DNA of 64,000 nt from Longitalea arenae (lineage in GTDB: Bacteria; Bacteroidota; Bacteroidia; Chitinophagales; Chitinophagaceae). The DNA is taken from positions 1 through 64,000 of the forward strand of contig NZ_JAFFJX010000017.1 in NCBI RefSeq assembly GCF_016924755.1, in the 5' to 3' direction. The position numbers and the translations under genes were made by a program. The notes beneath the pieces were generated by a model. That model saw only the letters and a program-made list of their open reading frames with translations. It made no database searches and was not told where the DNA came from. The number at the start of each line of letters is the position of its first letter. The first letter of the stretch is position 1. Shown one piece after another: positions 5,799-26,249 of this stretch.

Positions 5799-5804
5799 AA
5801 ACCA

Positions 5805-6240
5805 ATTTTTCTTCCTATTAAAGTTACACCAATTTCCGCAATAGGCAGTCAAAGCTGCTTCCAACCTGGCTCGAAGGGCGGGGGAGCATAATATACATTC
5901 CACGGCCGGTTGGTGCAGTAGAAATAAGCCAGCGAAAGAATGTTCTCCATGATCCGGGCATTATAAGGTTTGTTATCAACCGGCGCACGCCAAACGGATA
6001 TATTGATAAACCCTTTACGGGTCATGTTGCCACTACGCTGTTGGCGAACGTATGGAAATGCTTCAGGTAATAAGGTATGTCCAGTTCTTCATCAGTAAAA
6101 TCGGCAGGTTTGAATTTCGAGAGGTCTACGTCAGGCAGCTCGGGCCATTGCGATTGAAGGGTTTCAGTGCATAGGAGAAGCGATAGGATGATTGCAACAG
6201 CAGTATGGCAGGCAATTCGGGACATAGGTTTCAATTTCAT
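5805..6240 (-). pseudogene. Frameshifted remnant of a secreted protein (N-terminal part)
   Basis: Reading from ATG 6238-6240 gives a signal peptide (ending LCTETLQSQ) and the coherent stretch WPELPDVDLSKFKPADF, up to a TGA at 6022-6024. The same sense then continues in a second frame (5849-6025) with GFINISVWRAPVDNKPYNAR and FYCTNRPWNVYYA. It continues in a third frame after a G5 run at 5880-5884 with LRARLEAALTAYCGNW. The three pieces read as the start of one secreted, helix-rich enzyme-like protein broken by two frame changes and then truncated. The alternative is two short genes overlapping by ATGA at 6022-6025, but the homopolymer break and low-complexity-free composition favour decay. 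Family identity is not certain. Confidence 0.5.
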
Positions 6241-6423
6241 GTACAATTTATTATTTCTGCCGGTTTTATAACACGAAATCCATTGCACTGTTAAAATAGC
6301 TTATTGAAATGCTCATTTAACAAATCAAACTTTGTATCTTCATTGGCTCCTGCCTTATACAACGCCTTTGTTCGCTACCACCATTGAAGACCAACACTAT
6401 TCTTAACTTCAAAAAAGTTTACC

Positions 6424-7269
6424 ATGAATGAATCAACAACCATGCAACCAACTGCGGTGAACCCAAACAAAGCATTATGGGAAAAGGGCGATTTTACCCG
6501 CATAGCAGAAACCATGCGTGAAAGCGGCGCGGCGCTCGTTGAAAAACTAGGTATCACCAGCGGAATGGATGTACTGGATCTTGGATGCGGAGATGGCACT
6601 ACCGCCATTCCGGAGGCCCGGCTTGGCGCCAATGTATTAGGTGTAGACATTGCCGGCAATTTGGTGGCTGCCGCCAATAAACGCATTCAGGAGGAAGGTC
6701 TCACCAATATTACCGTGCGCGAGGGCGATGCCACCAACCTGGAAGGGATCCCCGATGAAAGTTTTGACCTGGTGGTAAGCATCTTCGGCGCCATGTTCGC
6801 ACCAAAACCATTTGATGTTGCCAAAGAAATGGTAAGAGTGACCCGTCGCGGAGGAAGGATCGTAATGGGCAACTGGATTCCCAATGATCCTACCCTCGTG
6901 GCGCAGATTTTGAAGATCAGTGCCACATACACACCACCACCACCGGAGGGATTTGTAAGTCCCATGTTATGGGGAGTGGAAAGCCATATTATCGACCGCT
7001 TTGGCAAAGCCGGTATTCCACCGGAAAACATTTCTTTTGAGCGCGACACCTATATTTTTATGGCTACCTTCTCACCGGCTGAACTGGTGGAAAGGTTCAA
7101 GAACTATTATGGACCTACCATGAATGCATTTGAAGCGGCGGAAAAAGAAGGAAGAGCCGCCGATCTGCAGCGGGAACTGGAAGAATTGTTCAACCGGGAA
7201 AACAGGAGTGGGGATGCCAACAGCACTTCCATTCCGGCTACCTTCCTGCGGGTAACGGTCAGGCGCTGA
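6424..7269 (+). CDS. Class I SAM-dependent methyltransferase
   Basis: 281 residues with the Rossmann-type methyltransferase core. Motif I is VLDLGCGDGTT (residues 50-60), the acidic residue binding the SAM ribose is in LGVDIAGN (about 77-84), motif II region EGDATNLEGIPDESFDLVVS, and motif III is VTRRGGRIVMGNW. It is Methyltransf_11/UbiE-like. The C-terminal third (helices around ELVERFKNYYGPTMNAFE) probably selects the substrate, which I cannot name; small-molecule substrates are usual for this layout. It is a single-gene unit with its own terminator at 7297-7329. Confidence 0.85.
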   Translation: MNESTTMQPTAVNPNKALWEKGDFTRIAETMRESGAALVEKLGITSGMDVLDLGCGDGTTAIPEARLGANVLGVDIAGNLVAAANKRIQEEGLTNITVREGDATNLEGIPDESFDLVVSIFGAMFAPKPFDVAKEMVRVTRRGGRIVMGNWIPNDPTLVAQILKISATYTPPPPEGFVSPMLWGVESHIIDRFGKAGIPPENISFERDTYIFMATFSPAELVERFKNYYGPTMNAFEAAEKEGRAADLQRELEELFNRENRSGDANSTSIPATFLRVTVRR

Positions 7270-7296
7270 CGTAAACAGCTAAGCCTGTCACTATAG

Positions 7297-7329
7297 AAGC
7301 CTTCCCATTAACACCGAGAAGGCTTTTTT
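7297..7329 (+). terminator. Rho-independent terminator after the methyltransferase gene
   Basis: AAGCCTTC (7297-7304) pairs perfectly with GAAGGCTT (7318-7325); the T-run 7324-7329 completes the signal. It lies 27 bases after the stop codon and ends 12 bases before the exonuclease III ATG. Confidence 0.8.
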
Positions 7330-7341
7330 AATTCGTTTCGT

Positions 7342-8115
7342 ATGATAAAGATCGCAACCTATAATATAAATGGCATCAATGGCCGTTTGCCTGTACTGCT
7401 TCGCTGGCTTAAGGAAGCCAGGCCCGATATCGTTTGTTTACAGGAGCTGAAAGCGCCTGCTGACCGGTTTCCAAAAGCAGCCATTGAGGCCGCAGGTTAT
7501 CAGGCTATCTGGCATGGACAAAAAGCGTATAACGGTGTGGCCATTCTTTCCCGTTCCTGGCCGATACAGGAGCTCAGGCGGCAATTGCCGGGCGATAAAA
7601 CAGATGATAGCTGCCGCTACCTGGAAGCAATTGTTGGTAAAATGGTGATCAGTTGCATCTATATGCCGAATGGCAACCCATACCCCGGGGAGAAATTTGA
7701 TTTTAAGGTGAAGTGGTTCAAAAGGCTTCACACACATGCAAAATCGCTATTGAAACACGATGTGCCTGTGTTGCTGGTGGGCGATTTTAATGTGATGCCT
7801 GCAGAACTGGACGTTTACAAACCCGAGAAGTATATAAATGATGCCCTTTTCAGAAAAGAGATCCGCGCCGCCTATGCGAAATTGCTGAAACAGGGGTACA
7901 CCGACGCATTGCGCACATTATTTCCGACGGAAAGGATTTATACTTTCTGGGATTATCTACGATTCGCCTGGGAACGCAATGCCGGGCTCAGGCTCGATCA
8001 TTTTCTGCTGAGCCAACACCTTACCAGCCGCTTACGCCAGGGTGGCGTTGATAAACATGTAAGGGGTTGGCAGAAAGCAAGTGATCATGCACCGGCCTGG
8101 ATAGCATTGCGGTGA
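7342..8115 (+). CDS. xth: Exodeoxyribonuclease III / AP endonuclease
   Basis: 257 residues, the normal ExoIII length. Family motifs are complete: IATYNINGINGR at the N-terminus, CLQELKA with metal-binding Glu35, VGDFNVMP at about 146-153, LRLDHFLLS, and the terminal SDHAP with the catalytic His. The enzyme cuts at abasic sites and degrades from 3' ends in base excision repair, in the cytoplasm. The GTATG start at 7342 is preceded closely by the upstream gene's terminator, leaving little room for a separate promoter, so some read-through may be needed. Confidence 0.92.
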   Translation: MIKIATYNINGINGRLPVLLRWLKEARPDIVCLQELKAPADRFPKAAIEAAGYQAIWHGQKAYNGVAILSRSWPIQELRRQLPGDKTDDSCRYLEAIVGKMVISCIYMPNGNPYPGEKFDFKVKWFKRLHTHAKSLLKHDVPVLLVGDFNVMPAELDVYKPEKYINDALFRKEIRAAYAKLLKQGYTDALRTLFPTERIYTFWDYLRFAWERNAGLRLDHFLLSQHLTSRLRQGGVDKHVRGWQKASDHAPAWIALR

Positions 8116-8188
8116 ATGAAAAAGCAATTGGCGAATAGAGAGTGGCGAGTAGGGAAATCAGAAAAGATAGTGAGTAACGGATAAAGCC

Positions 8189-8223
8189 CTACCAGCTTTT
8201 TACCACTGACTACCAGCTTTTAC
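8189..8223. repeat. Short direct repeat between convergent genes
   Basis: CTACCAGCTTTTTA is repeated 20 bases later as CTACCAGCTTTTA. The second copy runs into the stop codon of the minus-strand gene. The preceding bases (about 8131-8155) also hold the near-repeats GGCGAATAG and GGCGAGTAG. No terminator hairpin is evident, so the function is unknown. Confidence 0.4.
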
Positions 8224-8897
8224 TGTATTCCCAATATCGGCTTACAGGCGATGAATTTATCGATCAGCGCCGGGCAGTAGGCGCCTTCAAATTCACCAAA
8301 GCCCATTACAAATGCGGGCGCCGGCATGAAAAAACGGATCGCATTCGTTACTTCTTCCAGGTACTCCGTTGCATAACCATTGGTAATTCTGCTGGAATTG
8401 ATCGCCGTTTCAAAGTAGGGCGACTGATCCTCTGATCTTAACACCAGGAACGGTATAATAAAGGGAATATATTTACTTAATGCCGGATTGGCTTCGTAAG
8501 TCAGCCTGGTATCGGGCCAGATGTTCAGCTCATTAAAAGCAGGAGAGGCACTGGTTGTATAAACAGCCCGCTCGTTTTTCATCATTCTGAAGATTTCATC
8601 CTTATTGCTTTTGATGGCCATCTTAATGTAGGCATCCGTCCAGGTGGTAACCCCTTTGGCATTGATCGTAAAATAAGGATGAAGCGAGTTGGTGATGCAT
8701 ACGCCACCGATATTTCCTATTACCAGCTGGTACAGGTTATGAAAGCCCTGCATGTCATGCGAGCTGCGATTGGGATCGTTTGAAAACCCGTAGAGATAAT
8801 AAAAACGAAAGTCGTCAAGTTCCAGCTGGGTTCTTTCGGCATATGGGACAGATACGGTCTCTTCCTTAGCCTTTTTAAAAATACTTAATAAAGCCAT
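8220..8897 (-). CDS. Conserved-looking cytoplasmic protein of unknown function
   Basis: 225 residues, no signal peptide and no membrane helix. I do not recognise the family. Visible features are a charged N-terminus (FKKAKEE), an aromatic region LDDFRFYYLYGFSND, and a hydrophobic patch YIPFIIPFLVLRSEDQSPYF. The codon use and length support a real gene. It is convergent with exonuclease III and is probably a single-gene unit, as the nearest gene upstream on its strand lies beyond a divergent gene. Confidence 0.65.
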   Translation of the reverse strand: MALLSIFKKAKEETVSVPYAERTQLELDDFRFYYLYGFSNDPNRSSHDMQGFHNLYQLVIGNIGGVCITNSLHPYFTINAKGVTTWTDAYIKMAIKSNKDEIFRMMKNERAVYTTSASPAFNELNIWPDTRLTYEANPALSKYIPFIIPFLVLRSEDQSPYFETAINSSRITNGYATEYLEEVTNAIRFFMPAPAFVMGFGEFEGAYCPALIDKFIACKPILGIQ

Positions 8898-9264
8898 GGT
8901 TTTTCTAGTTGGATTTTATATAATACGTAAATATACAAGATGTATTGTATTGAAGCAAGCATAAAAAGCGGCTAAAGGGCTACTGTAGCGCTTTGCAGGC
9001 TGTTCGAAAGGGTTAGAAATGGGAGGAAGATGCTATGGGCAGCTAATATCCAAGATGCGTTTTTAGCAGTTAAACGCCCGGAAATGTGCTATAACCGGGC
9101 GTATTTCTTCGATAAACGGAAACGGAGGATACCAGTGAATAACTTTATTTTGAAGTGCTTCTAAAAATTCGATTAATTTTTGAAAATGTTGTTAAAAAAC
9201 GTTAACGGACAAGTGTTACGCTGCAAATGGATCCGCCGATAATTATTAAGTTCGTCTAAAAATT
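8898..9264. other. Intergenic region with one hairpin
   Basis: About 367 bp, and AT-rich next to the unknown gene, where its promoter should lie. The only clear structure is ACGCCCGG (9074-9081) pairing with CCGGGCGT (9095-9102), an 8-bp perfect stem with a 13-base loop and only a short T-tract on either side. No supported open frame. Confidence 0.5.
9074..9107. terminator. Possible weak bidirectional terminator hairpin
   Basis: A perfect 8-bp GC-rich stem with a 13-base loop, followed by ATTTC on the plus strand and by TTT on the minus strand. It stands alone between two divergent genes, which makes a terminator role uncertain; an operator or mRNA structure is also possible. Confidence 0.35.
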
Positions 9265-12534: not shown

Positions 12535-15384
12535 ATGAAATTAAATAGAAGCTATAAGATAGTATTACTGTTCGCTGTTTTAATACTCCTCATTTTTATA
12601 GCTAAATCATGGTTTTCTTCACCGGAAATGCCTGCGCGGCTGGGAAATGCTTATTATCTGATTGCCGGATTGATAGCAATGCTGGGATTTGTTTACAAGC
12701 TTTTTAAGGATCAGATCGATCTTCGCGTATCTGTTTTTTTAAAAGGGCAGAATAAGGAAACCTTATTACAGGCAATAGAAGATGAAAAAGAATACCTGAA
12801 CAATCTTTTTTCCAGGCTGAATGGTGAGTTACCCTGGGAAATTAAAAAATTCGCTGAACTGGAAGCGCTGAATTCGGGCATAGAGCCTTATGGCAGAAAA
12901 AGTAAAACGCGTAAAAAGAAATCCTGGTTAAAAGGCAGATCCGAATTGATGGAAGAACAGCTGCGGTCAAAGGTCTCTATCAGGGCTTACCTGGAAAGGG
13001 AAGTAGTTAAGGGTGGCGCTTTAATGCTTAAAGGTGAACCTGGTTCCGGCAAATCCATGATGGCGAGGCGCTTTACGGCAGACATGGCTCAAAAAGCCCT
13101 CAATGAAAAGTGGTCATTCGAGCCGCTGCTGCCGGTGTTTATTTCCCTGAATGCCTATAACGCCGTTGACACAAAAGGAGAACCAATCGCTTTTTTCGAT
13201 TTCATCAGGGATCACCTTAAAACGGAATATCAGTTTGCCGATTATATTGTCAATAATCTTAAGAAGCTGTTAAGTAAGGGCCGGATAATATTAGTGCTGG
13301 ACGGGCTCAATGAAATGCCGGCAGATGATAACGTCAAAAGAATAAAGAACATCGAGCATTTCTTTGGCAAAGATTATCCACGGATCAAATGTCTTATCAC
13401 CTGCCGCAATATTCAGTTTACGTCTGTTGACTATAAGACACTTGAGATAAATGAACTCAGCAATGAACAGATACAGAAATTTATCGAGCTGTATTTAGGG
13501 AAAGAATGGGTTGAGCCTGTATTCGATCAGATCTCAGCATCCCATGGCATCGCATTCAAGCGATTCAGGAATCCCTTTATATTAAGGATCTATTTGCAAA
13601 GAGATACCAGACGAAGCGCTCCTGATTCGCTGGCAATGTTATATTCCGAATACATTAATGACAAGTTTGCCCAGTATGAAGACGAACAGTTTGAGCTCCT
13701 CAATAAATTAAAAAAGATCTCCTTCTGTATGTCAAATGAAGGGCTTTTTGCCGGTTATGCCGATATAAAGACCCTTAGCGAAAAATTAAATATTGATATT
13801 TCAGAAGATTTCTTAAAAAAATGCGCAAAAGTCAATATCATAGACCACTCCCTGCATGGGAAGTTCAGGTTTTATCACCAGATATTCCAGGAATATTTTT
13901 CTGCATTGGTGCTCGATGATCTCGCCAATAATGGAGAGAATTACGAGATGTACCTAAAATCACCTGCATGGGAAGAAATAGTGCTTGTATGGGGTGGCAT
14001 TGTGGAAGATCTGCAAATACTTTTGAAACAGGTGCTCGAAGAAAAAAAGGATATCCGGAAATTATGCCTCGCGCTGAAATTGTGTTCCGTTAATTCTGGA
14101 AAAATTGACCGGCAATCCGTTGATGATACAATTGAATTAACGCGAACCATTTTTGACGGGTATGAGATCATACCAAAGGTAGAAGCTTTAAAGGCCCTGG
14201 CCATGCTGGAGAACGAAAAGTCGATTGACATGATTGCATATACTTTATACACGTCAACCGGATGGATCAGGGAGCTTTGTATTCAGATCCTCGGAAAATC
14301 TGAAAGCGAGGCGGCCAAAGCGCAATTGAAGCTTTGCATGAAAGATGTAAAGTCCTTCGAAGCTTTCTTCCAGGCAAGGTATTTTTTGCCCTTTAATACC
14401 TGGCTATCGCTTTACATCAGAAGCCAGATGCGGGCGGAGGTATTGCTGCCCTTGTTAGACAGGATCTGGCAATTTGGGTTCCTCTTTATTCCGGTGCTTA
14501 TGGTGGGACTGATCTATAGGGGAGCGGTTTATACGAATCTCGATCCTTTTGTATTTGTGAGCAGGTGCAATGCGCTTATATTAGCTATTGCAGTGGCTTC
14601 CCTGGTCCGGAAGAATATTAAATATCTGCGCGAGGATAATATCCCACTGAACTTTCGATCTCTCAAATATATTATCGGAACAACCGAAATAGTGTTAATG
14701 GTGCTTATCATTTCCAGTTGGTTTTTTGGGCGCGAGACCCTTGAAACAGTTTTAGTCTTATTGTTCCTCGGGGCTTGCTATTATCTGGGATGGGTTATTT
14801 ACCTGTTGCTGAAGAATTGCCGGAACATCGCCCGCTTCATTACCGTTTTGATAAGGGAAGGTGGGTTTATAGGCATTCTGACCATTGTCATAAGCGCAGC
14901 CTTCTTATTCCAGGTCTATGGGCCGGCCTGGACAAAAGACATAAGTTTCGGCAGTACACCCTCGGAGGGTAAGAGTATCCAATCTCAGGTCAGATTTGAT
15001 TCGGTATCACGTTTTACAAACATAATGATCGACGTAAATGATGTGAAGACCCGGCATCTTGCACCGGTTGTAATAAAGATTGGCGGTACCATTGGTGTTA
15101 TGAGTATAATCGCTTACATCATAACTTGTTTTTATTATCTGCGCATTATTATGAGGTTACGCCGGTACCGGCAGCAGGGATCACAAGACGATATGGAAAC
15201 ACTGGTAGCCATGGTTACCCATCCCAGGCTTTGGCCTGCCATTAAAAAGTTTATTTTACGAAGGCTCCGCCGCCAGGCCCTGCCCTTATTATTGATCAAC
15301 CGGCTGGAGTCTTATAGAGACAGTGAGGATGATGTAATGAATGAATTGGAAAGAACTGTGTATGAGCTAAAACATACCCGCTGA
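12535..15384 (+). CDS. NACHT-domain NTPase with multiple membrane helices
   Basis: 949 residues. Two hydrophobic helices lie at the N-terminus (about 8-27 and 38-57), then a basic linker. The NACHT-type STAND NTPase follows, with Walker A GEPGSGKS (167-174), Walker B LVLDGLNE (253-260) and a sensor-like LITCRN strand. A helical region follows with a short HEAT-like part (about 545-615). About six further membrane helices lie between residues 646 and 875, and a charged helical tail ends the protein. NACHT proteins are signalling NTPases, and several bacterial members give phage defence; the C-terminal part is usually the sensor and the N-terminal part the effector. A membrane-embedded C-terminus is unusual. 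It is a single gene, divergent from GH18, with a palindrome at its start. Confidence 0.85.
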   Translation: MKLNRSYKIVLLFAVLILLIFIAKSWFSSPEMPARLGNAYYLIAGLIAMLGFVYKLFKDQIDLRVSVFLKGQNKETLLQAIEDEKEYLNNLFSRLNGELPWEIKKFAELEALNSGIEPYGRKSKTRKKKSWLKGRSELMEEQLRSKVSIRAYLEREVVKGGALMLKGEPGSGKSMMARRFTADMAQKALNEKWSFEPLLPVFISLNAYNAVDTKGEPIAFFDFIRDHLKTEYQFADYIVNNLKKLLSKGRIILVLDGLNEMPADDNVKRIKNIEHFFGKDYPRIKCLITCRNIQFTSVDYKTLEINELSNEQIQKFIELYLGKEWVEPVFDQISASHGIAFKRFRNPFILRIYLQRDTRRSAPDSLAMLYSEYINDKFAQYEDEQFELLNKLKKISFCMSNEGLFAGYADIKTLSEKLNIDISEDFLKKCAKVNIIDHSLHGKFRFYHQIFQEYFSALVLDDLANNGENYEMYLKSPAWEEIVLVWGGIVEDLQILLKQVLEEKKDIRKLCLALKLCSVNSGKIDRQSVDDTIELTRTIFDGYEIIPKVEALKALAMLENEKSIDMIAYTLYTSTGWIRELCIQILGKSESEAAKAQLKLCMKDVKSFEAFFQARYFLPFNTWLSLYIRSQMRAEVLLPLLDRIWQFGFLFIPVLMVGLIYRGAVYTNLDPFVFVSRCNALILAIAVASLVRKNIKYLREDNIPLNFRSLKYIIGTTEIVLMVLIISSWFFGRETLETVLVLLFLGACYYLGWVIYLLLKNCRNIARFITVLIREGGFIGILTIVISAAFLFQVYGPAWTKDISFGSTPSEGKSIQSQVRFDSVSRFTNIMIDVNDVKTRHLAPVVIKIGGTIGVMSIIAYIITCFYYLRIIMRLRRYRQQGSQDDMETLVAMVTHPRLWPAIKKFILRRLRRQALPLLLINRLESYRDSEDDVMNELERTVYELKHTR

Positions 15385-15784: not shown

Positions 15785-17008
15785 ATGAGTACGTTCTTAG
15801 ACTTACAAAATGGATGGTATAATGGTTTCATACAGGGAATGGATCAAAGCCCGAATTCATTTCAGATCATTCAGCCGGCGCCGCCCATAGCAAGCGGCAC
15901 CGCACCAAATGCTACCTTCTGGGCTTATTACAACAATATCCCCCCATTGTCACTCACCCAACAATTTATGGCCAGCGGCGGTAACCAGTTTTATAGTAAT
16001 TACAGGGCATTGATGTCTGCACTGCTTCCATCAAGGACGGTTAATGTACAAAGCGATATCGGGGCCGACAATTTCAAAGAATGGCAAAAATATATCCTGG
16101 GTTTGTCAACCCCGCCCAGCATGAACCAGATGCCTACTTTATTTCGGAATTGGGCAATGATCTTTGCACCACAGGTGGCCAATATAGGGTCTTCTGATTA
16201 TGCTTCCATCTTATTGGATCCTATTGCTACCGCTCAAAACGAACTGACATTAATTTACACCGATATCAATGGGCTCCCGCGTCCTTTTACCTGGTCATTG
16301 AACTACAATGATATGGTAACGCAATTGAATTCCAGTCCTTCCAGACAATTCAACTTCGACAGCAGTTCCATGAATACCAACGTTAGCACCTCATGGGCAA
16401 AAGGGTCAAATGCAGGCCTCTTTGGACTCTGGGGCGGAAGCACTACAAACACGTCCATCAGCCAGCAGTTCGCTGCCAGCCATGTAAAGGTCACTGCATC
16501 CTTTGATAATGTGCTGGTGTATAGCAATACGCCCGGCCTCTGGTATAATTCGGCTGCCATGGCGCTGGCTTATGCCAATAAAACCGGCAATCCATGGAGC
16601 GATAAATCATCTATCAACTGGGATAATACTTTCGGAACAAATGGGAACATGCAACGCTTTGCAGCAAACCTGATCATCGCATCCGGCATGTCTGTCACCG
16701 TTACCTCCGACGCTGCTTATTCCACACTCGATCAGCAAACAATAACTTCCAGCGGGCATGCAGGCTTCTGGCCATTCTATTCCGGCAGCAGCGGCAGCTC
16801 CACTACAAATACGATAACATTCAATGAACAGGGACAAATGACCATTACTACCTCAAGTGTAAAAGGGGTGCCTGTGGTACTTGGCGTAAATGTGTTGCCT
16901 GTTAATCAATTTGTAGGTCACTCCGCAGCCATGAGCAACTCTTTGTATGCAGCTGCAAAGAGTTTCAAAGCGCCAAAACCGGAACTGGCCGGGGAGTTCG
17001 CCAATTAA
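15785..17008 (+). CDS. Orphan protein, paralogue A of a tandem pair
   Basis: 407 residues, no signal peptide and no membrane helix. I do not recognise the family. The N-terminal half is Tyr/Trp-rich (NGWYNGFIQGM, FWAYYNNIPPLS, FKEWQKYILGL). The C-terminal half is Ser/Thr/Asn-rich and beta-like (NAGLFGLWGGS, ASFDNVLVYSNTPGLWYNSA, SVTVTSDAAYS, GHAGFWPFY, VVLGVNVLPVNQFVG). The next gene matches it along the whole length, so the two arose by duplication. The beta-rich, aromatic composition without export signal would fit a cytoplasmic or non-classically released binding protein, but this is inference only. It has its own strong terminator. Confidence 0.7.
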   Translation: MSTFLDLQNGWYNGFIQGMDQSPNSFQIIQPAPPIASGTAPNATFWAYYNNIPPLSLTQQFMASGGNQFYSNYRALMSALLPSRTVNVQSDIGADNFKEWQKYILGLSTPPSMNQMPTLFRNWAMIFAPQVANIGSSDYASILLDPIATAQNELTLIYTDINGLPRPFTWSLNYNDMVTQLNSSPSRQFNFDSSSMNTNVSTSWAKGSNAGLFGLWGGSTTNTSISQQFAASHVKVTASFDNVLVYSNTPGLWYNSAAMALAYANKTGNPWSDKSSINWDNTFGTNGNMQRFAANLIIASGMSVTVTSDAAYSTLDQQTITSSGHAGFWPFYSGSSGSSTTNTITFNEQGQMTITTSSVKGVPVVLGVNVLPVNQFVGHSAAMSNSLYAAAKSFKAPKPELAGEFAN

Positions 17009-17041
17009 AAGCATTAACTTCATTTCATCCTTGTTTTCGAA

Positions 17042-17083
17042 AGAAGAGGCAGCCCGGTAAAGTGGCACTGCCTCTTCTTTTTG
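17042..17083 (+). terminator. Strong rho-independent terminator between the two orphan paralogues
   Basis: AAGAAGAGGCAG (17042-17053) and CTGCCTCTTCTT (17069-17080) form a perfect 12-bp stem with a 15-base loop and a T-run to 17083. It shows that the open frame beginning at 17062 is not the true start of the next gene and that the paralogues are transcribed separately. Confidence 0.85.
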
Positions 17084-17136
17084 GCTTATTCATTGCGCAA
17101 TTGTCTGAACCAGCCTATAAAACCAACCTATTCATT

Positions 17137-18261
17137 ATGATGCCCAACAAGTTTGCCTGTGATCAAATGACAGCAATCACAAATGCCTGGTACAATCAGT
17201 TATGCGAAAGCCTGCAGTTGTCATATAATCATTTTCAACTCTTCCAACCGGTTTTGGTAGCGCAAAACAATGATGATCTTTGGGCGCGTATTCATTCGGT
17301 TCCGCCTAAAACTTTAAAATATAATTCCTGGTATTATGATCAGCCCCGTTTTTTCAGTGAATATGCGGCAATCGTTAATCAATTGCGATTTCAGGAAAGC
17401 TCCTTTGAAGAAAGTATAGGCGAGGCTGTTTACACAAAATGGAAAACTTACCTGCAGGGATTAGCCCAATCACCACCCGATCATACTTTGCCAACCGTTT
17501 GGTTTCAATGGGCGCTCCTGCATGCGCCGGAACTTGCCAATACCGGTCGCTCCGCCCTTGCCAGCGAACTGCTTATTAAAAGTGGTCTGGCGGCTTTAAG
17601 GGCTTATCAGGGGCCCAATGCCAGATCACCGGAACTTTTACCGGCTTATGCCGATCTGATCAGCACCTTACAGGCATCGCCATCCGTTGCGTTTGAATGG
17701 AACTCCATAAATGGCAAACCTGATGTATCGAATACATGGGTACCTGCCAATGACCCCAACCTGTTTGGATTATGGACAGGGAGCTGGTGTGGATTCTTAC
17801 TTAACCAAAAATTCGCACAGCATCCCATTTCAATAGCCGCATGCTTTGAACACGTATCAGTAGTTGCCGTTACCCCCGGCCCCTGGTATCATGCAGGCCT
17901 CCTGCATCTTGCATTGGCGTCCAGATCGGTTCCACCATGGAATTCCGCTGCCGGATGGGATAAATATTTTGGTCAGGATGGCAGCCTGAATTACGCTATA
18001 GGAGCTGTGGTCGCCGTAGACGGTATTTCACTCACCATTTATTCCGATGCTGCATTCGCGCCGGAAGAACAAGCCCTCATCGGCTCGCAGGTTCATATGG
18101 GCTACTGGCCAATGTATTGTCCGCAAACGTCAGCTGTTGTAAGAAACGAACTTACTTTCGACGGTGGAAAGATGACCATCCGGTGCCAGTCTGCCCCCGG
18201 TAAGCCTGTGATCATCGGTGGAAATGTTTTTAGAATAGGCCAGTACCTGGGAGGAAACTGA
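17137..18261 (+). CDS. Orphan protein, paralogue B of a tandem pair
   Basis: 374 residues from ATG 17137 (a second ATG follows at 17140). An upstream in-frame GTG at 17062 lies inside a terminator and is rejected. It aligns with paralogue A throughout: NAWYNQL with NGWYNGF, WKTYLQGLAQSPP with WQKYILGLSTPP, DPNLFGLWTGS with NAGLFGLWGGS, TPGPWYHAGL with TPGLWYNSAA, LTIYSDAAFAPEEQ with VTVTSDAAYSTLDQ, and GYWPMY with GFWPFY. The copies have diverged strongly, so the duplication is old. No signal peptide, and function unknown. The convergent neighbour encodes a secreted protein. Confidence 0.7.
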   Translation: MMPNKFACDQMTAITNAWYNQLCESLQLSYNHFQLFQPVLVAQNNDDLWARIHSVPPKTLKYNSWYYDQPRFFSEYAAIVNQLRFQESSFEESIGEAVYTKWKTYLQGLAQSPPDHTLPTVWFQWALLHAPELANTGRSALASELLIKSGLAALRAYQGPNARSPELLPAYADLISTLQASPSVAFEWNSINGKPDVSNTWVPANDPNLFGLWTGSWCGFLLNQKFAQHPISIAACFEHVSVVAVTPGPWYHAGLLHLALASRSVPPWNSAAGWDKYFGQDGSLNYAIGAVVAVDGISLTIYSDAAFAPEEQALIGSQVHMGYWPMYCPQTSAVVRNELTFDGGKMTIRCQSAPGKPVIIGGNVFRIGQYLGGN

Positions 18262-18286
18262 TCTCCCATATGCCGGCGCTCTCGCA

Positions 18287-19486
18287 TCATTGCTTTAGGT
18301 CAAAAACGACCTTGGCATTTTTCTGCCTGCTCGATGAAATAAAAACCTCGTAGCGGTTGCCTGGTGTGTTGATGACCATTACAGAAGTATTCGGCGGAAT
18401 GGAACCAAGGTTTTCCGCCACCATGATCAATTCATGATGGCTTTGAGTGGTATTCACATCAATCGTAAAAGAGATCGGCTTATCAGACAGCCGCATCTTC
18501 GATTTGATCAATGTATTATTATGATAGATACTAACTGTATCATCATCTATTTCACCATTGTCGTAGCAACTGATACTGATCTTGCCGGCTTCGGTCTCAA
18601 TTTTCTTCACCAATGCATTTTCCCTGGTCTTTAACACCAGCGGCGCCGCCGGAATTATTATCGTAGATCCTGCCGGTTCAATAGTTTTTGCAACGATCAC
18701 CGGCTTCGGTTTGATCACCGGGGTTGAGGGAACCTTTTTCTGCTGAGGTGTGGTTACCCGGGGGCTGGCTGGCTTTGAAGCCGTCAAAGGTTTTGTCGTT
18801 GCTTGCGTTTTTTTCGTGGCAGCCGGTGGCCGTTTTGGTTTCACACATTCGCGGAAGGTGATATCATCTATGGCAAAATCGTTCCCGCAACCGCCCGGTG
18901 CATAATTGGCCATTACCAAACGCAGCGTTGAAACGGTTGCAGGGGTAGTAAAATAAGCCCGGTGCTGACCCCATACCGGCTCAGTTATTCGCGGAAGATC
19001 CCTGGTAACAATATTGGCCACCAGTTTGCCTTCAGGTGTTTCTAACCGGATATTGAGACTTGGCAATAATATCGACGGGCATTTCTTTGTGGGTCTGCAT
19101 AAATTAATCACCCATAAGCCAAGTTCATAAATGGTATTGCTCTTTAGACCGGTGACGGGCATGTTCAGAAAAACCCCACCATCCGGGGCTGCATTTACCA
19201 ATAACATATTGCCATCGGCATCGCCTGCGGTATGATCGCTGGTAAGCGTATGCCAGTCATCCCGGAAACATCCACTGGTATAGGAAACAAAAGAATAATG
19301 TCCGTCGGTAGGACAGGAGCCTGCAACCCGCCAATAGCTGGAAAGGCCCGCGCTATTGGGATCACGTACATTACCAGATCCGAAGTGTATGGTGAATTGG
19401 GGTGGCTTGAAGGTACAATTGTCTAGTTGCGCCTTTGATAGAAAGGTGAAGAGCCAAAGAATAAATATAAGACCAAACTTCTTCAA
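18287..19486 (-). CDS. Secreted two-domain protein with Pro/Thr/Lys linker
   Basis: 399 residues with a signal peptide (MKKFGLIFILWLFTFLSKAQ). Residues about 21-215 look like a jelly-roll, carbohydrate-binding-like domain with several cysteines (CPTDGHY, GCFRDDW, GNDFAIDDITFREC). The end resembles domains that finish in an IDDI strand. A Pro/Thr/Lys-rich linker spans about 216-290. The C-terminal 100 residues form a small beta domain (ISCYDNGEIDDDTVSIYHN, HELIMVAENLGSIPPNTS) seen in many Bacteroidetes surface proteins. No T9SS sorting domain and no catalytic motif are visible. A binding or adhesion role is plausible, but the ligand is unknown. Confidence 0.7.
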   Translation of the reverse strand: MKKFGLIFILWLFTFLSKAQLDNCTFKPPQFTIHFGSGNVRDPNSAGLSSYWRVAGSCPTDGHYSFVSYTSGCFRDDWHTLTSDHTAGDADGNMLLVNAAPDGGVFLNMPVTGLKSNTIYELGLWVINLCRPTKKCPSILLPSLNIRLETPEGKLVANIVTRDLPRITEPVWGQHRAYFTTPATVSTLRLVMANYAPGGCGNDFAIDDITFRECVKPKRPPAATKKTQATTKPLTASKPASPRVTTPQQKKVPSTPVIKPKPVIVAKTIEPAGSTIIIPAAPLVLKTRENALVKKIETEAGKISISCYDNGEIDDDTVSIYHNNTLIKSKMRLSDKPISFTIDVNTTQSHHELIMVAENLGSIPPNTSVMVINTPGNRYEVFISSSRQKNAKVVFDLKQ

Positions 19487-19580: not shown

Positions 19581-19985
19581 TCAGGCCTTGCAATATTTTT
19601 GTACCAGCATTTCTATCATTTCCCTGAATCCTTCAAAGGTATCGGGTTTGGTAATGATCTGGGTGGCGCCCATCCGGAAGCATTCATTGGATAAACGGCT
19701 GTCGTTATAGGTAGAGTAGATCACGACCGGAATATGGGTGAACCGGTCGTTCTTTTTGATAAGCTGCAGGGTTTCCTTTCCGTTAAGCTGGGGCATGTTC
19801 TGGTCAAGGATCACCAGGTCGGGCAACCTGGATGTATTTTCCAGCGCCTGAATGATCTGGACACCATTGTCCACTACATCGAAACGGATATTGCTGTTGG
19901 CACTGAGGCCATTCATGATCTCTGTGAAGATCCATTTGTCATCTTCATCATCTTCAGCTAACATTATGCGCTTAAATACTGTCAT
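19581..19985 (-). CDS. Single-domain response regulator (CheY-like)
   Basis: 134 residues consisting only of a receiver domain. It has an acidic pocket (E11-D12), the phosphoacceptor Asp61 in VILDQNMPQLNGK, and the conserved Lys in IITKPDTFEGF. No DNA-binding or enzymatic output follows. It is the last gene of the phytochrome operon, 12 bp after the stop of the large kinase gene, so it is the likely phosphoryl target of that kinase. Its variant type, with EDDEDD after the first strand, is the form often found beside phytochrome kinases. Its downstream partner is not in the window. Confidence 0.88.
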   Translation of the reverse strand: MTVFKRIMLAEDDEDDKWIFTEIMNGLSANSNIRFDVVDNGVQIIQALENTSRLPDLVILDQNMPQLNGKETLQLIKKNDRFTHIPVVIYSTYNDSRLSNECFRMGATQIITKPDTFEGFREMIEMLVQKYCKA

Positions 19986-19997
19986 TTTATATCCGTT

Positions 19998-22900
19998 TTA
20001 CCTGGCAGATTGTTCCAGCGGAAGTAAAATTGAAAAAACCGCCCCTTGCCCTTCCCGGCTGTTTGCAGCAACAAGGCCATTGTGTTTTTCTACGATCTTT
20101 TTTACGATGGCAAGACCGATACCAGTACCCTCAAATTTGTCTTTTGAATTCAAACGCTGGAACAGGTCAAAGATACGGGTCTTGAACTGTTCGTCAAACC
20201 CGATACCGTTATCCTTCACCTCGATATGACACCAGCGGCCATTTTCATCGCGTGGAGCAGTAAGTGATTTTTCATTGACACGCCATGCCGAGATCGTGAT
20301 CACGGGCGACACATCGTTACGGGAGAACTTCAGCGCATTGCCAATAAGGTTCTGGAACACCTGCTGAATATGCGGCCTTATAACTTCCAGCGGTGGTATT
20401 TCCGTTACCCTGATCTCTGCATTCTTTTCACGAATCACCATTTCAAAGTCTTCCCGCACTTCGCGAATGATCTGCGCCACATCGGTTTTAATGAAAACGG
20501 AAACTTCGTTGGATAGTTTAGAGAAGTGCAAAATATTATTCACCAGCGCTTTCATGCGCATCGCAGATTGCATGATCTTGTTCAGATAGACCACGGTTTC
20601 AGCGGGCAGGTTTCCTTCGTGCCGGTCTTTTACAATCTTGGTCAGCATGTGGATCTTGCGAAGCGGCTCCTGCAGGTCATGGCTGGCTACGGAAGCAAAC
20701 AGTTGCAGATCCCGGTTGCTCGATTGCAGTTCCCGGTTCATTTCCTGAAGCTGTTCTGTACGCTGTTTTACCTTTTCTTCCAGCTCTTCGTTCATGCGTT
20801 TGATCTCCTGTTCTGCCTTGCGAAGCGCCGTGAGATCGAGCATGGAGCCCAGCATGCGGTAAGGCACGCTGAATTCGTTATGCAGAATATACCCCCTGTC
20901 GAGCACATTGGCATAATCGCCATCTGCCTTTCGAAAGCGGTATTCCTGGCTCCATTGGTGGTGATTTTCATGAATGGCGGTATGAATGCTGCTTTTTACC
21001 CGCTCGCGGTCATCGGGGTGTATATGCTGCATCCAGTCTTGCCGCGTCATTCCTGTTTCTTCATAGCCGAAGGTCTTGCGGAAGGCATCGCTCCACCATA
21101 CCTTGTTTGCCGTAAAGTCCCAGTCCCACAGCGTATCATTTGTGGCACGCGCCACCAGGCGAAAGCGTTCTTCACTAAAAGACAGTTCCCGGGTTCTGTC
21201 CCTTACTTTATCTTCCAGCTCTTTATTAAGCTTGCGGAGATTTTCTTTCACTTCGTTCAGCTCGCTATAATTCTTGCGGATCTTCTGAACAGCTTTCTTT
21301 TTATCTGTTATGTCGGTAAAGGTTATAACAAGTCCGTCAGGCATCCGGGCCCCGGTCAGTTCAAACGACATATCCATTCCTTCCAATACCAGGTCGCGGT
21401 GCAGTTTGTTGTCATCCAGTACTACCGACAGGTACTCCGAAAACAGCTCGGCAGTGCTCAATAACGGCGCTGCGCTGCGCAGGCTTTTGCCGGTGAGCGC
21501 AAGATCTTGGGTGCCGAACCAATGCTGCGCCTTTTCATTCGCTGCATCTATCGTGAAGTCAATGATCTTTCCGCGCTGGTCTGTCACGGTATGCAGGGCT
21601 AATATAGCGCTTGTAGTGGCATTGAACACACTGCGGATGATATTGTTCAGGTTCGTAATGGTCGTGATATCTACAAAGTTGATGATGATGCCGGCGTATT
21701 TTTTCTCGCGGGTGATATAGGGCATGATGCGCAGCAGGAAGTTCTTTCCCTCGTGCAAACTGACTTCCTTTTCCACCACGGTGCGTGTAAGTTCTACCTG
21801 GCGGATATCATTTATCAGCTGGTCGTATTTGAAATTATTTGAAATGTCGGAGAACGGGCGGCCAAGATCTGACTCAATAAAATTGATGATCTCGGTCGAC
21901 GCCGGATTGAACTTCCGGATATTCAACTGCGCATCCAGGAAGATCTGGGCAATGTTTGTGCTGCGGAAATAGTTGTTCAGGTCATCATTCAGCTCTACCA
22001 GTTCCTTGATCTTCAGCTGGTGTTCAGTATTGAGTGTGTACAACTCTTCGTTCAACGATTGCAGTTCTTCATTCGAGCTTTGCAGCTCTTCGTTCGAGGA
22101 AAGCAGTTCTTCGTTCGAGCTCTGCAGCTCTTCGTTGGCTGTTTCCAGGTCCTCTATGGCCAGCTGCAGGCTGTTCTTGGTTTCGGCCAGTTCCGCTTCC
22201 AGGTTCCTTACATAATCGTAATCATATTCCGGCTCCTCTACTGCAGTATGGGGCTCTGCCTGCACCGCCGCCTTGCTGAACATCACCAGGGTATAATCGT
22301 GGCCGACCGCCATTTCAGATGGTTTCAGCAGCACGTTCACGGCACGGGTATTTTCTCCTTTGCCAAAAACCACATAGTTGATGTGAACAGGCCTGTTCGT
22401 TTTCCATGCTTTGCGCACTTCCCGGTTAACGATCAGGGAAAGGTCCTGCGGCAGCATGCGGATCAGGTTCAGGTTAAGCATTTTCTTGGGCAGGGAAAGC
22501 AGTTCCTCGTAATTGCCCATGGTCTCATGGATCTCAAAGTTGCGGTCGATATAAAAAGCGATAAAGCCCAGGTCTTCCAGAAAGGCGGTACGCATCTCTT
22601 TCCACAGGTCTTTCTGGCCTTTGGTGCCAATATCTATCGGGGTGGAAGCGTTTTGCCGCGGCATTCTAACGGGGCTGCCTACATTATCGCCAAAGGTAAC
22701 GCGCTGCTTGATGTCGGCCAGCTTCTTGTAGATCTTCCACTTCAGGCTGATCTGTTGTATGGCGCTGCTTTTGCTGAACGGCGGGTTTTCGCTGGGGCCA
22801 AGAAAAAGAAAGCCGTCGATGTTCAGGGAGAATTGCAGCATGGCATAGATCCTGTCCTGCAGCACGCTGTTCATATAAATGAGCATGTTACGGCAGGTGA

Positions 22901-24119
22901 CCAGGTCATTCTTGATAAAGGGCGGGTCTTTGGTAATATCGTGCCGCGCAAATACGATCTGTTTGCGCAGTCTTTGTATAATGCTCCAGCCTTTGGCCTT
23001 CTTTGTGAAATACTTGCTCAGCAAATGCTGCGGTACATCATTCTCTATCGAAAAAGGATAGATGCCGTTTGAAGCGATGTCGAGATTGGCGGTATCGATG
23101 TCAGAAGCAAAGATCTTAACCTCGATCTCTTTGCCTGTTTCTTCCAACACCTGGTCAATGGCCATGGCAATGGAATAAGCTTCTTCACCGGTGCTGCAGG
23201 CAGAAACCCATACTTTGAGCTGATCGCCACTTTCTTTGGAAGCGATGAGCTCAGGAAGCACTTTTTCCGAAAGCACTTTATAAGCTTCGGCATCGCGGAA
23301 GAATTTCGTAACGCTGATCAGGAAATCATGCGCCAGTTCCTTACATTCCGCCGGGTTGCTTTCCAGCAGTTTCACAAAGTCTGCAGGTTCTTCAATGCTG
23401 TGCTGCAGCATTCGTTTATTGATCCGCCGGAGTATGGTAGGTGTTTTGTAATAATGAAAATCCTGTCCCGCGTATTTATAGATCAGCTCAAATATTTGTA
23501 AAAGGGTTTGCTCGTCGGGCTCTTTGGCTTTGATGTGTTGTTCCGTCTGGAATATTTCTTTTACGATCGCTTCGGCAATACCGGCCGGCGTGTCTATTAC
23601 ATCGGCGTAACCTGAGGCCAGTGCGCTGTTCGGCATGCCATTGAATTTGGCCGAAGTGGGGTCCTGTACCATCACACAACCGCCATTTTCTTTAATGGCG
23701 GCAATGCCCCTGGTACCATCGGTGCCTGTTCCCGAGAGGATCACGGCGATCGCCTGGTCTTTTTTATCAGCGGCCAAGGAATGCAGGAATACATCAATCG
23801 CATTATTGGGCGCCTTGTCATTCACTTTATCAGACAGCAGCAATTTCCCTTTTTGCATACGGATCTGTTTATTATTGGGGATCACGTATACGCTATTGGG
23901 CAATACCGGCATATTGTGGGCCGCTTCCAGCACTTTCATATGTGTTCTTCTGCCCACCAGGTCAACCAGCAGGCTCTTATAATCCGGCGAAAGGTGCTGG
24001 ATCACTACAAAAGACATATTGCCGGTCTGCGGCATATGGTCAAAGAACTCCTGGATGGCTTCCAGGCCACCGGCAGAAGCTCCTACCGTAATCACATAAT
24101 GTTTTTGGGTCTCTTTCAT
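19998..24119 (-). CDS. CheB-CheR-PAS-histidine kinase fusion protein
   Basis: 1373 residues, soluble. The domains in order are: CheB methylesterase (about 1-190, GASAGG with catalytic Ser15, [20 protein letters not shown]); CheR methyltransferase (about 200-475, [12 protein letters not shown]); a PAS-like region; a long coiled coil of repeated NEELQSS-type heptads (about 660-720); further PAS domains (about 730-1110); and HisKA with [10 protein letters not shown] (His near 1146) plus HATPase_c (NALKFS, DNGIGFD, GTGIGLA). CheB/CheR fusions of this kind are signalling proteins outside classical chemotaxis. The start codon overlaps the phytochrome stop by 4 bp (ATGA), implying coupled translation. 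It probably serves as the kinase for the kinase-less phytochrome. Confidence 0.9.
22035..22140 (-). repeat. In-gene tandem repeat coding a coiled coil
   Basis: Seven-codon units coding [21 protein letters not shown] repeat about five times inside the CheB-CheR-kinase gene. At DNA level the units are near-identical (TTCGTTCGAGCTCTGCAGC on the plus strand). Such a stretch can change length by slippage and would alter the coiled coil between the CheR and PAS parts. Confidence 0.7.
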
Positions 24120-25639
24120 TGCTGATATGCCAATGGTTCCGGGTTTATCAATTCATATATAAAACTACGCAGATTTTCTGCAGCCATCACTTCCTCGGGC
24201 AGCCACGGTTTCGAAAATCCCTGCATATGCTCCTGCCACAATTTGAAAGAGTGGCGCGGGTGATAGACTTTTGGATCTTTGTCGAAAAAAATGCGTTCTT
24301 CCGGATTGCCGCCCCAACTGGTCGTGCGGATGTACTCTTTCCGGAACAGAATAAGGTATTCGTCCTGCGCCGATTGTATCGGTATGACCAGTAAACCGCT
24401 GGCAGTCTCCTGGTAATCCATGGCCATATCATATACGCCCGAGAGCGAATCGGTATGAAAGACCTTGCGAAGTTGTTTCAGGTGAAGCCATAATACGAGG
24501 TCTTCGAGTTGTGATGCATTGGGCACTTCGCCCGCTTTTTCGATCTTGTTTTTATAAGTCACTACCACGCCCTGCGCTTCGAACAGTTCCATAACCGACG
24601 GTTTTTCATGCAGCAGACCCTTAACGAGATTTTTACTTTGATAAATATTCTCGATCAGCTGTGTATAAAGACCGTTGAGCCGGGCGCTCAGGTCAAGGAA
24701 TTTCTGGTGGTGCAGCACGTTGATGCGGGCCGAAATAATGGTCGACAGAAACTCCAGTACGGTGCACAACTGGTTGTCGATATGCCGGGATGTTTTGTGG
24801 TGACAGGCGATAAGGCCCCAGAGGGCGCCGTCTTTTAATAACCTGACCGACATGGAAGCCATCACATGCATGTTCTTCAGGTATTCTACATGCACGGCGG
24901 CCACGCCACGAAGATTGCATTCCGTCATGTCGAGAAAAGTGTTGGTGATCGGGTTTATCACCGGGTATAGTTTTACCGGTTTGAATTCCCGGTTGGGAAT
25001 AAAGCGGTAAGGATTTTTCTGGTACATGTCGCGCGCGGGCTTGGGAATGTCTGATGCAGGAAAGGTGAAGCCCAGATACGATTCCATGCCGGGCTCCATG
25101 GCTTCGGCCAGTACATTGCCATTCCATTCATAATCGAATGCATAGATCATCACTTTATCGAATCCGCTGATCCTTTTCAATTCTTCCGCTGCAATGGTGC
25201 ATACCTGCTGGATATCGGGCGCCGATTCAACTTTCTGGATGGTGGTTCGAAGCGACTGGTATAATGTGGTGAAAGAGGTTTCGGTATCTTCTGTAGGGTG
25301 AGTTTCTATTTCAACGATCACCATATTTTCTTTTACATGCAGCAGGGTATAATGGCGTTGCCCGTTTATTTCCCATGTAGTGGCATATTTGCCATTCCCT
25401 TTTTCCAGGTGCTCCTGTAATACCCGGAAGGCCAATGCACCAATTACATCGTGCACCGGTGTGCCTGGTAAAGTTTTATAAGGTAATTGAAACATGGCCC
25501 CGGCATTTTCGCCTACCTGCTCTATGATGAGGGAGTGCCTGTCGAGCACCAGCAGAACGCCGTACTCTTGCGTGGTATTAATAATATGAATGGGAATAGT
25601 GCCGCAAAATTCGGAGTCGTATTTAGAAAACTGGCTCAT
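24116..25639 (-). CDS. bphP: Bacteriophytochrome photosensory module (PAS-GAF-PHY) without kinase
   Basis: 507 residues. The N-terminal segment has Cys12 before IPIHI, where bacteriophytochromes attach biliverdin. PAS is about 15-115. GAF is about 135-315, with the signature PASDIP (194-199), AVHVEYLKNM and the CHHKTS histidines (about 279-284). PHY is about 330-500, with the tongue motif PRHSF at 461-465. The protein ends about 40 residues later with no histidine kinase or other output domain. It should bind biliverdin and switch between red and far-red forms. It overlaps the heme oxygenase gene by 17 bp and the kinase gene by 4 bp. Output must pass through a partner, most simply the downstream kinase. 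Confidence 0.9.
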   Translation of the reverse strand: MSQFSKYDSEFCGTIPIHIINTTQEYGVLLVLDRHSLIIEQVGENAGAMFQLPYKTLPGTPVHDVIGALAFRVLQEHLEKGNGKYATTWEINGQRHYTLLHVKENMVIVEIETHPTEDTETSFTTLYQSLRTTIQKVESAPDIQQVCTIAAEELKRISGFDKVMIYAFDYEWNGNVLAEAMEPGMESYLGFTFPASDIPKPARDMYQKNPYRFIPNREFKPVKLYPVINPITNTFLDMTECNLRGVAAVHVEYLKNMHVMASMSVRLLKDGALWGLIACHHKTSRHIDNQLCTVLEFLSTIISARINVLHHQKFLDLSARLNGLYTQLIENIYQSKNLVKGLLHEKPSVMELFEAQGVVVTYKNKIEKAGEVPNASQLEDLVLWLHLKQLRKVFHTDSLSGVYDMAMDYQETASGLLVIPIQSAQDEYLILFRKEYIRTTSWGGNPEERIFFDKDPKVYHPRHSFKLWQEHMQGFSKPWLPEEVMAAENLRSFIYELINPEPLAYQQ

Positions 25640-26249
25640 ACTGGTTGATCCACGCTTTGAATGTTAAAAATGTTTGCCGGGCCGTATCGGCACTTGCTTC
25701 CTGGTCTTCTTTTCGCGTAAGCGCAAGCAGATAAGTGTGGAATTTATTCCACATTTCGGATGCATTTTCCCCATAACAAGTAAAAAACGAAAATCCCTTT
25801 CCGGCAGGAATTTCCGGCAATTGCGTCCTGATCATTTTCGCTATGATCATACCACCGAGGGTTGATCCCTCCAGCACGTATGCGGCTCCCAGCGCCCTTG
25901 CATAGCTGTCGATCACCGGTATATCAAGTTTTAGCTGCTGCTTCCGGATCTCCCCGCCAAGGTCCCGGATATCCTGCAGCAGCGCAGCTGATTTGCGGCG
26001 CTGTTCGATGTCCGGAATATGCTCTTTTTTCAAATATTGTTCCATCACGGGTTCAAGGGCGTGGTAGTAGCCATGGAACATCTTCAGCAACTGTATGTAC
26101 TGGTGCTGATGGCGAATATTTTTAATGATGCCGATCAATAGTTTCTCCAGCGCAGCATGTTCTGCTTTCGTGTGCAATTTTATGTATTCAGGAAATGAGA
26201 GATCTGTCACGTTCACTATTTGAGTTGCAAGATAATTCGAAGGCGTCAT
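25623..26249 (-). CDS. bphO: Biliverdin-forming heme oxygenase (BphO type)
   Basis: 208 residues, all-helical heme oxygenase fold. The likely proximal heme ligand is His31 in TKAEHAALEKL, and the distal helix carries LGAAYVLEGSTLGGMII (about 121-137) with the family GSxxGG pattern. It opens heme to biliverdin, CO and iron; biliverdin is the phytochrome chromophore. It is the first gene of the operon and overlaps the phytochrome start by 17 bp. The ATG at 26247-26249 fits a promoter box 25 bp upstream. The heme oxygenase and phytochrome pairing is well known, which supports both calls. Confidence 0.9.
   Translation of the reverse strand: MTPSNYLATQIVNVTDLSFPEYIKLHTKAEHAALEKLLIGIIKNIRHQHQYIQLLKMFHGYYHALEPVMEQYLKKEHIPDIEQRRKSAALLQDIRDLGGEIRKQQLKLDIPVIDSYARALGAAYVLEGSTLGGMIIAKMIRTQLPEIPAGKGFSFFTCYGENASEMWNKFHTYLLALTRKEDQEASADTARQTFLTFKAWINQYEPVF

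Follow-up and report, generated by a model that had tools for sequence, protein, structure and literature searches.

How does a bacterial phytochrome that ends directly behind its photosensory module pass on a light signal? According to the review PMC10813442, most bacterial phytochromes carry a C-terminal kinase. The question is raised by a 64,000-nucleotide stretch of the Longitalea arenae genome (contig NZ_JAFFJX010000017.1, positions 1 to 64,000; hereafter the window), in which four genes were arranged head to tail on the minus strand as judged by open reading frames (ORFs) and Pfam: a heme oxygenase gene, a phytochrome gene lacking any kinase part (24116-25639), a gene encoding a histidine kinase (HK) preceded by CheB and CheR domains (19998-24119; CheB-CheR kinase), and a gene for a lone receiver. 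An earlier note made from these letters alone had proposed that light signals pass in trans from the phytochrome to the CheB-CheR kinase and on to the receiver. The comparisons below strongly supported the first step, a dedicated in-trans partnership of phytochrome and CheB-CheR kinase being very probable on sequence grounds, while the step to the receiver was the weak part of the proposal. A phytochrome-kinase light-sensing system with sensor and kinase as separate proteins was, with good confidence, the best explanation of the locus as a whole.

Pairing of kinase-less phytochromes with CheB-CheR kinases

The surroundings of 196 phytochrome genes (73 kinase-less and 123 kinase-fused) were compared, "kinase-less" denoting an ORF without a match to the kinase domain of the window kinase. 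The genes came from four sources: (i) the window plus 39 more genes matched in 244 genomes of its family; (ii) 81 genes in the best 80 loci of at least 592 relatives, obtained by scanning genomes of named species; (iii) 19 genes in 18 regions, from the 39 matches listed when 395 genomes of the class were scanned, among them the two new genes of kinase-less length; and (iv) 41 further kinase-less-length genes among the matches listed in 251 genomes belonging to the family of genome G470, along with 15 fused ones used as controls; this family was taken to be Sphingobacteriaceae. The ORF lengths of the two sorts did not overlap: 495-571 amino acids (aa) for the kinase-less phytochromes (397 aa at locus L082) versus at least 654 aa for the fused ones.

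On the same strand, a gene for a CheB-CheR kinase immediately followed 71 of the 73 kinase-less phytochrome genes (67 of the 69 clusters formed at 98% identity), with gaps of -56 to +51 bp (171 bp at the broken locus L082). None of the 123 kinase-fused phytochromes had such a gene downstream and one had it upstream: in L121 (Salegentibacter sediminis), a CheB-CheR-PAS_10-HK kinase (5312-8947) directly preceded the fused phytochrome, the sole fused case of this kind. Among 31 split loci, 36 of the 465 locus pairs had any flanking gene in common (up to 3 ORFs of at least 120 aa per side compared), and the pair was thus seen to persist amid changing surroundings. A heme oxygenase gene was found directly upstream of the phytochrome in 25 of the 69 split clusters, and in 21 the kinase gene was immediately followed by a receiver gene. 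What is conserved is the pair of phytochrome and kinase, with heme oxygenase and receiver as optional members. The four-gene operon of the earlier note was rejected as the conserved unit on these two counts, being a local form of the two-gene unit; the gene order that was to be looked for across genomes recurred for phytochrome and kinase, not with the outer two genes as fixed members. In two split-pair loci, L082 and L085, the kinase gene was interrupted into two ORFs, by decay or assembly error, and the short phytochrome ORF of L082 belonged to one of them.

Trees and partner distances

All 73 kinase-less phytochromes were gathered in one clade (support 100), which also contained two fused phytochromes, L052 and L057; a model-based tree of 85 rows, 32 of them kinase-less, recovered the same single clade with L052 and L057. 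The tree of CheB-CheR parts comprised 43 proteins (30 of the 71 kinases linked to a phytochrome, 12 unlinked ones, and that of L121); in it, a branch with support 100/99 held 29 of these 30 linked kinases and no unlinked ones. Ten unlinked kinases lay apart from the linked branch; the other two, L174 and L182, are considered below together with L087. A single clade of all 30 linked kinases was not recovered in the best tree, L087 falling outside, although the constraint was not rejected by the approximately unbiased test (p-AU 0.1).

The distances among phytochromes and among their partner kinases were correlated (Mantel r 0.91 for 26 pairs, 0 of 2000 permutations being as high; the duplicate or broken loci L082, L085, L086, and L156 were dropped), a correlation that could be explained by vertical descent alone. 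L039, from a genome (G174) of the window's own family, was placed among Mucilaginibacter in both the phytochrome and the kinase tree, which is consistent with joint transfer of the pair.

Natural fusions and kinase-domain lineages

The fused phytochromes L057 (PHY-PAS_3-HisKA-HATPase, 896 aa) and L052 (PHY-HisKA-HATPase, 752 aa) were sisters within the split clade. Their output modules were compared with linked and unlinked CheB-CheR kinases and with 107 phytochrome-fused kinases: (i) that of L057 matched a linked CheB-CheR kinase best (391 bits, 49% identity), followed by unlinked CheB-CheR kinases (281 bits) and phytochrome-fused kinases (182 bits); and (ii) that of L052 likewise matched a linked CheB-CheR kinase best (217 bits, 46% identity), with 165 bits for unlinked and 167 bits for phytochrome-fused kinases, the last being L057 itself. 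At least once, then, this phytochrome type has become fused to the lineage of its neighbour kinase; the join lies immediately ahead of the phosphorylation domain and leaves out the CheB-CheR part. A kinase fused to the phytochrome in relatives had been named at the outset as an observation that could overturn the in-trans proposal; such relatives were found, and they count for the phytochrome-kinase link since the output modules of L052 and L057 belong to the partner-kinase lineage.

A further case was provided by L046, one of the two kinase-less phytochromes with no CheB-CheR kinase downstream: its partner kinase had no CheB, CheR, coil, or PAS_10, and it shared about 40-45% identity with the linked kinases over their C-terminal half. 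From the two fusions and this partner devoid of CheB-CheR, we infer that the phytochrome would act on the PAS/coil-kinase half and that CheB-CheR would be a regulatory addition.

The HK parts of 29 linked kinases fell into a group of 18 (with unlinked L174 inside), a group of 10, and L087 alone. One kinase-domain lineage for all linked kinases was not found, as the ten (Mucilaginibacter-type loci, L039, and L061) and L087 differed from the rest; the loci whose HK part lay outside the group of 18 were L039, L061, L077-L079, L081, L083, L084, L156, L157, and L087. Apart from L087, these kinases had a CheB-CheR part of the same branch in spite of their differing HK part, which would fit an exchange of the kinase half in L039, L061, and the Mucilaginibacter-type loci. 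Genome G068 harbored both the nested fusion L052 and the unlinked CheB-CheR kinase L174, which grouped beside linked kinases and was perhaps a former partner.

The phytochrome and its neighbour genes in the window

The heme oxygenase and phytochrome genes overlapped by 17 bp and the phytochrome and kinase genes by 4 bp, while a gap of 12 bp separated kinase and receiver; these figures, the four genes, and their domains were all as first noted, and every Pfam domain call on the four proteins was above its curated cut-off. The 507-aa phytochrome displayed the PAS_2-GAF-PHY tridomain of the photosensor part of bacteriophytochromes, and Pfam detected no domain C-terminal to PHY, that is, no covalently attached kinase or other output. 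The NCBI BphP equivalog NF041576 gave 275.5 bits and was matched to profile position 507 of 622, with a full-length cut-off (1040 bits) that was not reached. The C-terminal tail measured 42 residues past the PRHSF tongue (residues 461-465), in agreement with the earlier estimate of about 40 residues and no output domain, and in 31 other kinase-less phytochromes (31 of the 73; 41 added later were outside this count) the tail after the tongue comprised 36-44 residues. The end of the protein is for this reason regarded as fixed and not as a random truncation. This phytochrome gene was the sole PHY gene detected in the 7.28-Mb genome, and its nearest named relative, from Longitalea luteola, was 84% identical.

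Residues with established roles in phytochromes are the N-terminal bilin-binding Cys, the Asp of the DIP motif, two His of the GAF domain, and the PRxSF tongue. In the 32 of the 73 kinase-less phytochromes that were checked, Cys12 was kept in 31, Asp197, His250, and His280 in all 32, and the tongue residues in 31; the only gaps came from the short row of L082, whose ORF did possess a PRxSF motif in the tail scan. The solved relatives were mostly photosensory modules of BphP/Cph1, and Cys12 aligned with the Cys of the best one, 9jry. By these residues, the phytochrome is likely a functional photosensor.

The heme oxygenase (25623-26249, minus strand; bphO-type, 208 aa) was identified by PF01126 (48.9 bits, cut-off 23), and its best relative with a solved structure was HemO (1j77). 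The single-domain response regulator (19581-19985, minus strand; 134 aa, PF00072, Response_reg) had 6xvu as its best solved relative by sequence, and RphyB, RcpA, RcpB, and Rcp1 were listed too, among many other receivers. We take 6xvu to be the Deinococcus phytochrome response regulator DrRR; with this identity, the receiver fits a phytochrome response regulator of the Rcp/DrRR type.

Methylation domains and the Glu-Glu coil of the kinase

The catalytic triad of CheB is Ser/His/Asp, and CheR is recognized by motif residues of its S-adenosylmethionine (SAM) site. The 1373-aa window kinase (minus strand) had the Pfam order CheB_methylest, CheR_N, CheR, PAS_10, PAS_4, PAS_3, HisKA, and HATPase_c. 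In the 43 CheB-CheR proteins of the tree, window kinase included, the columns of Ser15, His42, and Asp134 were kept in 43, 43, and 41 proteins, respectively (CheB parts compared by alignment to 3sft and 1chd), and the CheR motif residues in 37-43. With CheB triad, CheR SAM site, HisKA, and HATPase_c all in place, the protein is, by its sequence, a CheB/CheR fusion histidine kinase.

Between CheR and PAS_10 lay a coil (residues 663-702; 22014-22133, minus strand) with five heptad-spaced Glu-Glu (EE) pairs at residues 663, 670, 677, 684, and 691, a candidate substrate of CheR methylation. The chemoreceptor methylation consensus is EExx[AS][ST] (PMC1079850), and the coil sites EELQSS (663), EELLSS (670), and EELQSS (677) fitted it fully, while EELQSL (684) and EELYTL (691) fitted it in part; in the kinase coils, Ser mostly stood where the consensus has Ala. 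Across 82 CheB-CheR kinases, the window one included, 463 of the 466 EE heptads fitted EExx[AST] and 275 fitted EExx[AST][AST], versus 190 and 16, respectively, of the 677 EE pairs that these proteins have elsewhere.

The association of such coils with CheR was counted in three sets, which span homologous proteins and are not independent trials: (i) a run of at least two heptad-spaced E[EQ]xx[AST][AST] motifs was present in 82 of 83 CheR-bearing ORFs (each at least 300 aa; L082 and L085, with the coil on the second piece, set aside), the 82 being 81 CheB-CheR proteins plus a kinase with CheR only and the one ORF lacking a run being a stand-alone 305-aa CheR, versus 0 of the 1124 remaining ORFs in these loci; (ii) none of 120 PAS_10 kinases (best hits to one kinase devoid of CheB/CheR, under a length limit that excluded CheB/CheR) had more than two consecutive EE heptads; and (iii) three to six EE heptads were found in six plasmid CheB-CheR proteins, five alphaproteobacterial and one from Spirosoma (six of 25 listed records, with 411 matched). 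Column conservation among proteins P0121-P0240 was not used as evidence, these proteins having been retrieved with the coil as query.

The Longitalea arenae genome yielded no methyl-accepting chemotaxis protein (MCP; PF00015) and no CheW (PF01584); CheA was not searched. The suggestion that methylation is used here outside chemotaxis gained from these comparisons a candidate substrate, and it fits the genomic background without detected MCP or CheW. That the kinase's own coil would be the substrate of its CheR and CheB domains is slightly favoured. In the main alternative, which has a real though lesser probability, the CheB and CheR domains would be genuine enzymes acting on another protein, such as an as yet unknown receptor or the phytochrome; the EE coil would then be a structural signalling helix only. 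Signalling helices are commonly conserved in kinases, and genomes G108 and G111 carried stand-alone CheB and CheR genes with no MCP found there, which makes other substrates likely to exist; against this alternative, the heptad-spaced EE-x-x-small runs went with CheR in the loci read, were missing from the 120 PAS_10 kinases lacking CheB/CheR, and recurred in the six plasmid proteins.

Further arrangements of these genes were observed. L077 (Mucilaginibacter sp. SMC90) encoded, near its split pair, an 884-aa CheR-PAS-HK protein without CheB (16144-18798) that had four EE heptads and offers the methylation idea an example in nature with CheR alone. In L050 (1645-3423), L186, and L187, from genomes without detected MCP, CheR and CheB were encoded by stand-alone genes next to each other, and those of L050 adjoined the split phytochrome operon.

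Weighing of the partnership and proposed pathway

Several observations weigh against a dedicated partnership or parts of it: (i) L046 had no CheB-CheR partner, its phytochrome being followed by a PAS_4-PAS_3-PAS-HK kinase without CheB/CheR, and L064 had no nearby kinase, its phytochrome being followed by a 158-aa ORF (no Pfam match) and then a glycoside hydrolase; in both genomes, no CheB-CheR kinase was found, only stand-alone CheB; (ii) the 71 pairings are not independent events, because the split phytochromes form one clade; (iii) the kinase of Pontibacter L087 fell outside the branch of 29, beside L121 and the unlinked L174 and L182, in a part of the tree without resolution; (iv) L057 and L052, sisters in the phytochrome tree, may represent one fusion event, and the kinase-domain tree placed them among the linked kinases with moderate support only (80-91 in the Shimodaira-Hasegawa-like approximate likelihood-ratio test, SH-aLRT); (v) with three kinase-domain lineages among 29 linked kinases, no single docking surface is established; (vi) the receiver is absent from its place behind the kinase in all but the 21 split clusters given above; and (vii) an MCP (PF00015) exceeded the cut-off in 1 of 40 split-bearing genomes, with weak sub-cut-off matches in 2 more.

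In one alternative, the genes are merely co-expressed, the phytochrome using other kinases or acting alone as a light or redox sensor and the PAS domains of the kinase sensing something else. L064 keeps a phytochrome with its chromophore residues in a genome where no CheB-CheR kinase was found, and 12 CheB-CheR proteins, for 10 of which a kinase part was found, occurred away from phytochromes in the 32 genomes searched. Mere co-expression is nonetheless unlikely in view of the 71 pairings of 73 with their short gaps, the apparent joint movement of the pair into L039, and the fusions of L057 and L052 to the partner lineage. That a frameshift or assembly error had split an ordinary fused phytochrome kinase has a negligible probability: L082 and L085 do hold interrupted kinase genes, but the 73-gene comparison refuted the artefact, as the split and fused lengths never overlapped, 31 split phytochromes stopped 36-44 residues past the tongue, and the downstream kinase starts with CheB-CheR and not with a phytochrome-type linker.

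Under the reading of a light-sensing system divided between two proteins, the following pathway is proposed. The heme oxygenase would supply biliverdin, which the PAS-GAF-PHY protein, to judge from its conserved residues, would bind at Cys12 and so switch between red- and far-red-absorbing states. The C-terminal helix of the phytochrome may dock on the PAS/coil region of the kinase just before the histidine-phosphorylation domain, the place where L057 and L052 carry sensor and kinase parts fused, and the docked phytochrome would change kinase activity, which might rise or fall in the light. At loci that include a receiver gene, this phytochrome-type receiver would take over the phosphoryl group, and such phosphotransfer from the kinase to the adjacent receiver is likely. 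With less certainty, the CheR and CheB domains might reversibly methylate the EE heptads of their own coil, and this might reset kinase activity as chemoreceptor methylation does. A self-adapting photoreceptor kinase, in which a phytochrome acting in trans and a self-methylated EE coil make up a one-chain light-memory circuit without chemoreceptor or CheW, is given an even chance.

Other genes in the window

Three further features were observed in the window: (i) a 949-aa protein (12535-15384) with a NACHT ATPase domain, for which PADLOC gave a weak partial CARF-like hit only; (ii) two adjacent proteins of about 400 aa each (15785-18261), with no Pfam match and 32% identical to each other; and (iii) a 1366-aa hybrid two-component protein (41679-45779; propeller, Y_Y_Y, HisKA, HATPase, receiver, and AraC-type helix-turn-helix) adjoining a family 3 glycoside hydrolase.

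Relation to known systems and significance

The pair resembled bacteriophytochrome two-component systems of the Cph1-Rcp1 and DrBphP-DrRR type in its PAS-GAF-PHY module with bilin Cys and in the nearby heme oxygenase and phytochrome-type receiver, but here the kinase is not covalently attached and belongs to a separate CheB-CheR protein. Short LOV photoreceptors of the PpSB1 type (PMC6798134) are likewise effector-less photosensors with presumed in-trans signalling, but they use another photosensor and no partner is named for them in the accessible part of that paper, whereas here the partner gene is conserved next door. In sensory rhodopsin-Htr complexes (PMC6798134), a separate photoreceptor also feeds a separate methyl-accepting-type transducer; those are membrane proteins that feed the chemotaxis machinery, whereas here kinase and methylation enzymes share one chain. 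No membrane segment was predicted by Pfam in the phytochrome-kinase system.

RsbM is presumably a CheR-like enzyme. The nearest precedent seen for methylation of an HK outside chemotaxis was that in Bacillus cereus RsbM methylates the signalling helix (S-helix) of the kinase RsbK (PMC4574943); RsbM differs in being a separate protein, and no light sensor is involved. Other CheB/CheR fusion HKs shared the domain order and the EE coil, including the plasmid-borne members of Alphaproteobacteria and Spirosoma, but 29 of the 30 phytochrome-linked ones in the tree formed a branch of their own. A CheB-CheR hybrid has been noted in Rhodospirillum centenum, with no function given in the accessible part of PMC2890560, and no kinase-less paired class is mentioned in the accessible part of PMC4422448, a phylogeny of phytochromes that includes 19 sequences from Bacteroidetes. 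A literature search with most subscription papers outside its scope returned no pairing of a kinase-less phytochrome with a CheB/CheR kinase, no self-methylation of a CheB/CheR kinase, and no experimental paper on CheB/CheR fusion kinases.

The pairing is read as a two-component system of the phytochrome kind whose sensor and kinase are separate proteins and which plausibly contains its own methylation circuit. A whole clade of Bacteroidota keeps sensor and kinase as neighbouring separate genes, and their coupling is open to study by mixing two proteins. The sequence evidence gives CheB/CheR fusion kinases a concrete, testable candidate substrate, their own coil. Should this hold, the reversible glutamate methylation by which chemoreceptors adapt would be used more widely among histidine kinases, with light as a clean on/off input for proving methylation adaptation of a kinase; the CheB/CheR fusion kinases of Bacteroidota and Alphaproteobacteria would then be self-methylating, and those paired with a phytochrome would form their branch with a switchable light input.

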